From: Deltaproteobacteria bacterium
Lineage (GTDB): Bacteria > Myxococcota_A > UBA9042 > DTJE01
Reading direction: 5' to 3'
Assembly: GCA_029555025.1 (NCBI GenBank)
Contig: JAKPTZ010000045.1
Span: 1-64,000 of the forward strand
Length of the DNA stretch: 64,000 bases
The notes below the pieces were generated by a model, which saw nothing but the letters and a program-made list of their open reading frames with translations, searched no databases and was not told where the DNA came from. Both the position numbers and the translations under genes were made by a program. This document shows positions 21,938 through 25,132 of this stretch, in pieces; the first letter of the stretch is position 1; each line of letters begins with the position of its first letter.

Positions 21938-22705
21938 ATGATTTTCGCAATCAACGGCGCTCGAGGACGAATGGGCCGAATGCTTGTCGAAGTGCTTTCA
22001 GACCCGACCGTTTCTTCGACCCATCAGGTGGGCGGGCTGGTTGAAAGGGCCGGACACCCCGACACTGGCGGCATTGTGCGGGTCGCGGGAACGGATCTTG
22101 TGCTTGTCGATGATCCGGAGGCCCTTCCACGCGATATCGACGTCGGACTGGATTTCAGCGCCGCCGGGTCGGGTACAGCATTCGCCAGGGCGATGGCCAG
22201 ACGCCATGCCGCGCTGCTTGTCGGCGTCACCGGCCTTCCCGCCGGGGATCTTCTTGCCTTGCGCGAGATCGGCAAAAAGACTCCGGTTCTGGTCGCGGCA
22301 AACACCGCTCTCGGGGTTCTGTGCCTTTCCGAGCTTGCCGCGACGGCAAGGCGAATGCTTGGAAACAATTACGACGTCGAAGTGTTTGAGATGCACCACA
22401 GGCACAAGAAGGACGCCCCGTCCGGAACTGCGCTCACGCTTGCCCGAAGGCTTGAATCGACCGGGCTTCACGCGGCCGCCGACAGGAACGGGCAGCGCCA
22501 GGATGGCGAAATCGGCATATCCGCGGCTCGTGGGGGGGAAGTGGTCGGGGTTCACACGATTTACTTCCTGGGCCCGAACGACCAGCTTGAACTGACCCAC
22601 CGGGCGAACTCAAGAAAGGCTTTTGCCGAGGGCGCTGTGAAAATGGCGGCCCTGCTTCGCGCGAAGGCCCCGGGTTACTACGAAATCAACGATCTTCTTC
22701 GTTGA
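21938..22705 (+). CDS. dapB: 4-hydroxy-tetrahydrodipicolinate reductase
   Basis: INGARGRMGRMLVE, VFEMHHRHKKDAPSGTALTLA. Confidence 0.97.
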   Translation: MIFAINGARGRMGRMLVEVLSDPTVSSTHQVGGLVERAGHPDTGGIVRVAGTDLVLVDDPEALPRDIDVGLDFSAAGSGTAFARAMARRHAALLVGVTGLPAGDLLALREIGKKTPVLVAANTALGVLCLSELAATARRMLGNNYDVEVFEMHHRHKKDAPSGTALTLARRLESTGLHAAADRNGQRQDGEIGISAARGGEVVGVHTIYFLGPNDQLELTHRANSRKAFAEGAVKMAALLRAKAPGYYEINDLLR

Positions 22706-23771
22706 TCACCGTATTCTTCCAACTCGACATTATCTCGAAGAATGCCATCCGGTTCACGATGTCCTGAAGGAAGGCTGCCGCACCATCAAAGCCAAACTGC
22801 GGCTTCGGAAAGAACGAGTGGTGATCCTGACATGGAAACCATGCCTCCAGGAAGGGCTCGTCGGTCGTGGCTGCAAACTTCGTGAAGTTCGAATTCCCGA
22901 TCGTCAGGGCCATCGGCTCGCCCGGATCGTCATCGAATATCGCCGACAGATCGACGGCACAGTCGCCGGAACCGGTCACCGCGCCGCGACACGGGACGCA
23001 TCCGACCTCCTGCAGGAAGCCTGCTGCAGCCTGTATCATTGAAGCGTCACCAACCAGGCCAATCCTGCGGTTCAGAAGGGAATGCGGCACAACCCACTCG
23101 AACCTGGGAACGATTCGGCCAAGTTCCGCATTCACGAACTCGGCTCCACGCTCGCGTCTTCCGCACGCGGAAGCGACAATCCCGACAAACCTGGAAGTAT
23201 TGTCGAAGCCAAGCGGGATGGGTGCCTGAACCACCCTGGCGCCGGTTCTTGCTGCAATGGCGGCAGCGACCCGAAGACCGTTCGGAAGGGCGACGATGAT
23301 TCCGGAACGGCAGACGGCGGCCAGATCGGCCACGACGCACGATGATGGCCAGCAGGAAGACACGGAAAGCCCCAGGCCGTCCCGGACAAGCGCCGAAACG
23401 GCCTCGACGTCCGCTTTGCCGTCCGGCTCGTTCCGCGTGACGGGAATTCCGGTTATTGCAACCGAAAACGGGGAAATTCCGGCACCGGCCGAAGTGATGG
23501 CGTCAGCCAGCGCACACATGGCGTCCTCGACCCCCGCGATCCAGTCGGCACCGTCCCGGCGTGCAAGCGGCTGGCCGTCTTTCGCCAGCATTCTTTCAAC
23601 GATATCGACCCGGTGCAGCCCGTCATGACGCTGAACCACCCGCGCCGCCTCGGCGACTTCCTCGGGTGAGGATCCGGTCACGTTGAACCGGGCGTCGCCA
23701 ACCAGGTTCACGACCACGGCCACGCCTTCCAACCACGGTCGGCCATAATCCTGCGGGTTAAATTCCAGCAC
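22686..23771 (-). CDS. Nitrogenase component 1 (NifD/K)-like protein, short, single subunit
   Basis: ORF to 23795; SD AAGGAG precedes GTG 23771. VAITGIPVTRNEPDGKADVEAVSALVRDGLGLSVSSCW…IPLGFDNTSRFV…RRIGLVGDASMIQAAAGFLQEVG…FPCQDHHSFFPKPQFGFDGAAAFLQDIVNR resembles NifD/K-type domains. Partner of the NifH-like gene. Confidence 0.75.
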   Translation of the reverse strand: MLEFNPQDYGRPWLEGVAVVVNLVGDARFNVTGSSPEEVAEAARVVQRHDGLHRVDIVERMLAKDGQPLARRDGADWIAGVEDAMCALADAITSAGAGISPFSVAITGIPVTRNEPDGKADVEAVSALVRDGLGLSVSSCWPSSCVVADLAAVCRSGIIVALPNGLRVAAAIAARTGARVVQAPIPLGFDNTSRFVGIVASACGRRERGAEFVNAELGRIVPRFEWVVPHSLLNRRIGLVGDASMIQAAAGFLQEVGCVPCRGAVTGSGDCAVDLSAIFDDDPGEPMALTIGNSNFTKFAATTDEPFLEAWFPCQDHHSFFPKPQFGFDGAAAFLQDIVNRMAFFEIMSSWKNTVINEEDR

Positions 23772-24594
23772 CAAGCGTCTCCTTGATGAAAGCATCGAAT
23801 TCGGCGTCGGTCATCGGCGTCGGAACGGGGTGACTTTCCGGCGCATCGCCCATCATGACATCGGCAAGCCCCTGAAAGATTGCGACGACGTCCGAATCGG
23901 GATCGGCCATGACAATTGGAAGGCCGGCAATCTCTGCGCGGGCAATCAGGGGATGTCTGGGAATCTCGGCGACAATCCTGGTACCGATGCGCCGCGCGAA
24001 CTGCCGCATGCCGTCGTAGTTGGTCTGCGGCCCGGTCGAATTGAGGATAAGACCGCCAAGCCCGATTCCGTTGGTCGCGAAACGCTTCATCGCCTTGGCG
24101 ATGTTGTTTGCCGCGTACAGCGCCATCACGCCTTCGCTGATGACGATATAAACCAGATCCGCCCTGCCCTGCCGCAAAGGCGCCGCGAATCCGCCGCACA
24201 CGACGTCGCCAAGGACGTCGAAAATCGCCGCGTCGTAATTGCCCTGCTCGATCAGTTCAAGCTCATCAAGGACTTCGAACATCCTGGCAACGCCGCGACC
24301 TCCACAACCGACCCCGGGCTCGGGCCCGCCGCACTCGATACAGTCCAGTCCAAGCCGGCCCTTGAAAACGATCTCGTCGGCCGACTCGATGCTTCCGGCA
24401 AGGTGATCGATAACGGTGGTCAGGCCGCTGTCGGGGGTCAGAAGGTTTCTTGTCGAGTCCGCCTTCGGATCGCATCCGACGTGAAGTACCTTCAATCCAC
24501 GGCTGGCCAGGATGGCGCTGATGTTCGACGCCACGGTCGATTTCCCGATTCCGCCCTTGCCATAAAGGGCAATCATTTTCGTCTTCCGGATCAA
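23758..24594 (-). CDS. NifH/BchL/CfbC-family ATP-dependent reductase (nitrogenase-like Fe protein)
   Basis: KMIALYGKGGIGKSTVASNISAIL, VGCDPKADSTRNLL, GGPEPGVGCGGRG, FDVLGDVVCGGFAAPLR; both 4Fe-4S Cys contexts present. Confidence 0.95.
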   Translation of the reverse strand: MIRKTKMIALYGKGGIGKSTVASNISAILASRGLKVLHVGCDPKADSTRNLLTPDSGLTTVIDHLAGSIESADEIVFKGRLGLDCIECGGPEPGVGCGGRGVARMFEVLDELELIEQGNYDAAIFDVLGDVVCGGFAAPLRQGRADLVYIVISEGVMALYAANNIAKAMKRFATNGIGLGGLILNSTGPQTNYDGMRQFARRIGTRIVAEIPRHPLIARAEIAGLPIVMADPDSDVVAIFQGLADVMMGDAPESHPVPTPMTDAEFDAFIKETLGAGI

Positions 24595-24757: not shown

Positions 24758-25132
24758 ATGAATCCGACCGCATTCCAGATATTCTGTGGATATTACCTTG
24801 GCCTGGACAGCGAATTCGGCGCGAAGTTCTTCAACGTCCATTCACTGGCCGCCCATTATGGAATCGATGCCGGCACGCTTCAGGAATTGATGGCGGCGCA
24901 TGGAATGGTTCCCGAAAACATGCGCCACATCGACTTCAACGTGGCAAAGGCCCATGGAATCGCACAGGAACTGACCTTCACCGCGTCCAGGGAGGACGTG
25001 ATCAGGCACGCCCGGGATTCCTTCGACGCATTTGTCCAGGCGGCCCGCAAAATGGATCCCGCCAAGGTTTTCGAGGACATCGATTACGACGACGTGTGGG
25101 AAGACGAAAAGGACAACCGCGGCAACCGCTGA
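24758..25132 (+). CDS. Conserved-looking 124-aa hypothetical protein divergent from the NifH-like gene
   Basis: ATG start, codon usage consistent with coding, flanked by non-coding sequence; no recognised family. Confidence 0.65.
   Translation: MNPTAFQIFCGYYLGLDSEFGAKFFNVHSLAAHYGIDAGTLQELMAAHGMVPENMRHIDFNVAKAHGIAQELTFTASREDVIRHARDSFDAFVQAARKMDPAKVFEDIDYDDVWEDEKDNRGNR

Follow-up and report, generated by a model that had tools for sequence, protein, structure and literature searches.

Introduction

In known nitrogenase-like enzymes the catalytic component holds two or more [4Fe-4S] clusters (PMC11423573). In MarHDK six P-cluster cysteines are spread over D and K (PMC12552129). Isr has one conserved cysteine in D and three in K, other NifD homologues having three (PMC11423573). 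CfbD, the outgroup to all D and K proteins (PMC12552129), retains three N-terminal cysteine ligands (PMC11423573).

The locus described here lies within a 64,000-nucleotide stretch of a deltaproteobacterial contig, referred to as the window. It resembles CfbCD, whose substrate is Ni-sirohydrochlorin a,c-diamide, in consisting of two genes, one for a NifH-like reductase and one for a component-1-type protein of ~350 aa. It differs from CfbCD in that the short component-1-type partner has no conserved cysteine, and this protein is a shortened K-type subunit, a K paralogue from which the single cluster ligand and roughly half of domain I have been lost.

Organisation of the locus

The two-gene unit spans positions 22686-24594 of the window on the reverse strand and comprises the following features.

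22686..23771, (-): gene of the 361-aa partner, a short component-1-like protein of K type, with GTG start (PF00148, E 1.1e-21)
23541..23771, (-): domain I remnant of the partner, residues 1-77 (alignments and secondary structure of two AlphaFold models)
23758..24594, (-): gene of the NifH-like reductase, 278 aa (open reading frame; PF00142, Fer4_NifH, E 1.3e-79)
23779..23784, (-): AAGGAG ribosome-binding site of the partner, within the 3' end of the nifH-like gene (read from the sequence)

The nifH-like gene starts with TTG behind AGAGGA, with an alternative ATG at 24576. The partner frame gives 369 aa from its first ATG (23795) and 361 aa from a GTG at 23771, which is positioned 7 nt past AAGGAG (23784-23779) and is the better start. 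The partner start overlaps the nifH-like stop by 14 nt, so translational coupling is likely. An upstream start or frame restoring the partner N-terminus was sought and rejected, as the nifH gene occupies the upstream frame; the N-terminal cluster domain noted as absent in an earlier sequence-only reading of this DNA is indeed missing. A frameshift or mis-assembly was ruled out by orthologues of the pair in separate MAGs.

The NifH-like reductase

The P-loop GKGGIGKS is retained together with CDPKADST, GVGCGGRG and DVLGDVVCGG, and the P-loop, switch aspartate and two cluster cysteines place the protein in the NifH/BchL/CfbC family (PF00142). It scored below cut-off with the curated models for nifH (274.9 bits, cut-off 394), BchL (189.6 bits, cut-off 345) and CfbC (NF033200; 271 bits, cut-off 402). 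The five NifH-like proteins associated with the pair form one clade (SH-aLRT 100) with clade-specific residues at Av 143 (R in place of K143) and Av 146 (L in place of E146). Both positions, which from NifH-NifDK complexes generally we take to belong to the component-1 docking face of NifH, point more to a dedicated partner than to a reductase shared among several.

The short partner

The partner passed the Pfam cut-off for PF00148 (77.7 bits, cut-off 28.6) and has a D/K fold, which assigns it to the nitrogenase component 1 superfamily. Each of its best 50 PDB structure matches was a D/K-type chain (lowest E 4e-12), the top ones mostly of K/N type. Only profile positions 120-398 of 399 were matched, so the N-terminal, cysteine-bearing third is missing. 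The sequence-only reading had described an intact NifH-type reductase and one short D/K-like partner lacking N-terminal cluster cysteines, and this anatomy was recovered in full.

The closest sequence relatives are long K-type paralogues (L054-L062, and on contig C45 of the same genome) at ~26-35% identity. They share domains II and III with the partner and differ from it in keeping a domain I with a DGPDC-type cysteine. Long relatives from Myxococcota and Elusimicrobiota begin GVYLA.NAIPD....DGPDC....HD, and the DGPDC cysteine, or a cysteine close by, was present in nearly all of those aligning at that region. The short clade retains G...N and HD but has lost the DGPDC cysteine, and alignments against the long relatives place a gap of ~58 residues before its DWLDGY motif. 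The domain I region is thereby residues 1-77 in the partner versus ~135 residues in the long relatives, DGPDC cysteine included. AlphaFold models of the partner (pLDDT 85) and of one long relative (pLDDT 82) contain two and four domain I strands respectively, and in the partner model domains II and III are complete and confidently folded.

The known ligands of component 1 clusters are domain I cysteines, sometimes aspartate. Beyond the lost DGPDC residue, no cysteine is invariant across the five orthologous partners, which have two to nine each. The cysteines listed in the sequence-only reading are all present in the window partner (nine in total), but as none is common to all orthologues they are not family-wide cluster ligands. 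That reading had taken the pair for a homodimeric minimal reductase with its own rewired Fe-S cluster, a proposal consistent with the CfbCD-like arrangement of a single component-1-type gene next to a single NifH gene, and with the nine cysteines of the window partner. It now appears most improbable: the short clade has no invariant cysteine to hold such a cluster, the AlphaFold model has a pruned domain I and no replacement cluster domain, and the CfbD model (TIGR03282) did not match the partner. A non-cysteine ligand may nevertheless be present. With the known cluster-holding cysteine lost, the partner probably cannot work like known nitrogenase-like enzymes.

Assignment to characterised subfamilies

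The best curated-HMM resemblance of the partner was to BchZ (31.4 bits, cut-off 529), with NifK close behind (30.6 bits, cut-off 427); all scores were far below cut-off. Molybdenum nitrogenase (NifHDK) is further distinguished by the sub-threshold nifH score and by the lack of an adjoining D gene at the locus, and DPOR/COR by the sub-threshold BchL score. The pair shares with DPOR/COR (BchLNB, BchXYZ) a K-type fold, and its long relatives an apparent 3+1 division of cysteines between D and K; unlike DPOR/COR, the short partner has no conserved cysteine ligand. The six P-cluster cysteines over D and K that characterise MarHDK are lacking, since the pair has a single component-1-type gene and this encodes no conserved cysteine. 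On these scores the partner lies outside the characterised subfamilies tested by curated models (NifDK, BchNB/YZ, CfbD), in agreement with the sequence-only reading, and it is set apart from Mar by the P-cluster cysteines only.

Distribution and phylogeny

Of 13 genomes searched in the GTDB family, five contain the pair: the window genome (G000; 97.6% complete), G036, G176, G206 and G070. In G070 a contig end truncates the partner, leaving four complete partners. Compared with the window, the other NifH-like proteins are 60-65% identical and the partners ~33-39% identical. Named counterparts of these contigs carry the labels Myxococcota, Deltaproteobacteria, Anaeromyxobacter and, in one case, Oligoflexales MAG. 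There was no further full-length match among the 52 genomes of the class searched, and scans of genome and viral contigs for close relatives with a single protein gave no match.

In four of the five genomes (all except G070) the partner end faces dapB at the same site. With five orthologous pairs in separate MAGs, the pair is not a product of chance. The conserved neighbours are dapB, metK, yebC and ruvCAB, with no linked pathway gene among them. In G011 and G040 dapB and a small neighbouring gene are ~28 nt apart with the pair missing between them, indicating that both genes were acquired or lost together. The five partners form one clade (SH-aLRT 96), and the partner and NifH-like clades have the same two closest members, G036 and G176. 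The pair is thus a conserved, co-encoded and co-inherited unit in uncultured, mostly Myxococcota-labelled bacteria.

The small gene (24758-25132, +) encodes an orphan protein of 124 aa with no Pfam match and an invariant FCGYYLGLD motif; one homologue has a weak HTH resemblance, and the gene adjoins dapB in some genomes. It was rejected as a third component, being present in 12 of the 13 family genomes, most of which lack the pair, and adjoining dapB in pair-less G011 and G040.

Between G036 and G176 the partners are 52% identical, the long K subunits 75-77% and the NifH-like proteins 80% in both kinds. The partner therefore evolves faster than the K subunits that bear a cluster, with no such acceleration in its reductase, as expected if catalytic constraint has been lost. 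Such divergence, the loss of domain I strands and ligand and the fact that some relatives have no partner at the corresponding site would also fit a relic, a decaying K paralogue kept only by linkage to nifH. This is highly unlikely, however: the four complete orthologues are open frames of 356-361 aa with the same pruned domain at about 35-50% identity, ~40 columns of the short-clade alignment are invariant, and the predicted fold is confident.

Component 1 genes and reductases elsewhere in the genomes

A whole-genome search of the window genome returned a single Fer4_NifH gene in the assembly, that of the window. Its other component 1 clusters have no adjoining NifH: C45 carries a D-K-D set, and C15 a D-K set that continues on C117, apparently with its D gene divided by the contig break. 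The D-K-D set (L043:7451-12342) is near feoB, and the same set occurs in G158 of the same genus (L047). The sole NifH-like protein of this genome thus probably also serves the NifH-less D/K sets.

Surplus NifH-less K-type genes numbered 2, 4, 4, 1 and 10 in the pair genomes versus 2, 0, 2, 2, 0, 0, 1 and 0 in the pair-less ones. The surplus was higher in pair genomes (exact p 0.015; permutation without the most fragmented genome, G206, p 0.028), in counts made by eye over 13 fragmented, related and non-independent MAGs and with a test chosen after the counts were known. In G206 itself the nitrogenase-like matches include ~15 of K type and many of D type, alongside ~six NifH genes, a large expansion in one MAG.

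D-like genes upstream of long K genes encode ~three cysteines (FFC or HC, EC, STC); with the one cysteine of the long K this makes a DPOR-like 3+1 division likely in the long enzymes. The short partner could form a hybrid heterodimer with the product of a distant D-like gene, a subunit in which three cysteines would hold a [4Fe-4S] cluster with the fourth site open or filled by a non-cysteine ligand. The D-K-D cluster of the window genome, with one D in excess, would suit this arrangement. In G036, however, all five D genes adjoin a full K gene, which rules out orphan-D pairing as a general rule, and G158 has the D-K-D set with no short pair found (86% complete). A hybrid of this kind is quite unlikely.

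Candidate mechanism

Our preferred reading, held tentatively and with somewhat less than even confidence, is of a NifH-type reductase that orphan D/K enzymes also use and that is accompanied by a dedicated, cluster-free pseudo-subunit. The NifH-like protein would be a standard [4Fe-4S] electron-transfer protein driven by ATP, and would act as general reductase for the D/K-type enzymes of the genome that have no NifH of their own. The short partner would dock on the reductase or on these enzymes as an adaptor, holdase or regulator and would not itself catalyse. This reading draws on the intact NifH motifs, the sole NifH, the surplus of NifH-less D/K genes, the gene overlap and the matching clades, and, for the partner, on the missing invariant cysteine, the loss of the DGPDC ligand with two of four domain I strands and the fast divergence. 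Against it stand the clade-specific residues on the NifH docking face and the confidently folded domains II and III, which in relatives form much of the substrate site.

Alternatively, the pair may be an autonomous cluster-free reductase. The partner, probably as a dimer, would bind an organic substrate, or a cofactor of the tetrapyrrole or corrinoid kind, in the space between domains II and III, to be reduced directly by the [4Fe-4S] cluster of NifH with no relay cluster. The dedicated, overlapping gene pair with clades of its own, the clade-specific residues on the NifH docking face, the retained and well-folded domains II and III and the G036 gene set, in which each D has its own K and no orphan D is left for pairing, all agree with such an enzyme. 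It remains doubtful, since all characterised relatives rely on a cluster in their catalytic component (PMC11423573), the partner evolves fast and no pathway gene is linked to the pair. That the pair represents a relay-free class of the nitrogenase superfamily, in which ATP-gated electrons would pass from a NifH-type [4Fe-4S] cluster straight to a substrate or cofactor on a cluster-free component 1 scaffold, is unlikely.

If cluster-free, the partner would be either the first catalytic component of that kind or the first pseudo-subunit of the superfamily; to our knowledge neither has been described in it before. The short clade offers a natural test of the need for domain I and its cluster, and the fact that some genomes encode many D/K-type enzymes but few NifH-type reductases raises the question of reductase sharing.

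Long relatives and radical SAM neighbourhoods

Group IV systems (Mar, Isr and Nfa; BHDK sets) are similar to the pair in combining NifH with D/K-type proteins. The short pair differs from them in having no adjoining D, no ligands and no window homologue of the radical SAM proteins tested.

The long K-type relatives, mostly 420-480 aa, are encoded in H-D-K or D-K sets. At L054, L056, L062, L143, L144, L145 and L048 such sets, or a NifH-like gene, stand beside radical SAM genes, a layout that resembles isrBHDK (PMC11423573). Some of these radical SAM neighbours have a B12-binding or SPASM domain, and the neighbourhoods are possible cofactor or natural-product pathways of a new kind. A radical SAM link was rejected for the short pair: homologues of the four radical SAM proteins tested were absent from the window, and in G036 one lies ~7 kb from the pair with other genes between. 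At a further locus (L045:5539-8796) NifH-like and D-like domains are fused in an open frame of 1085 aa, which is followed by a K-type gene.
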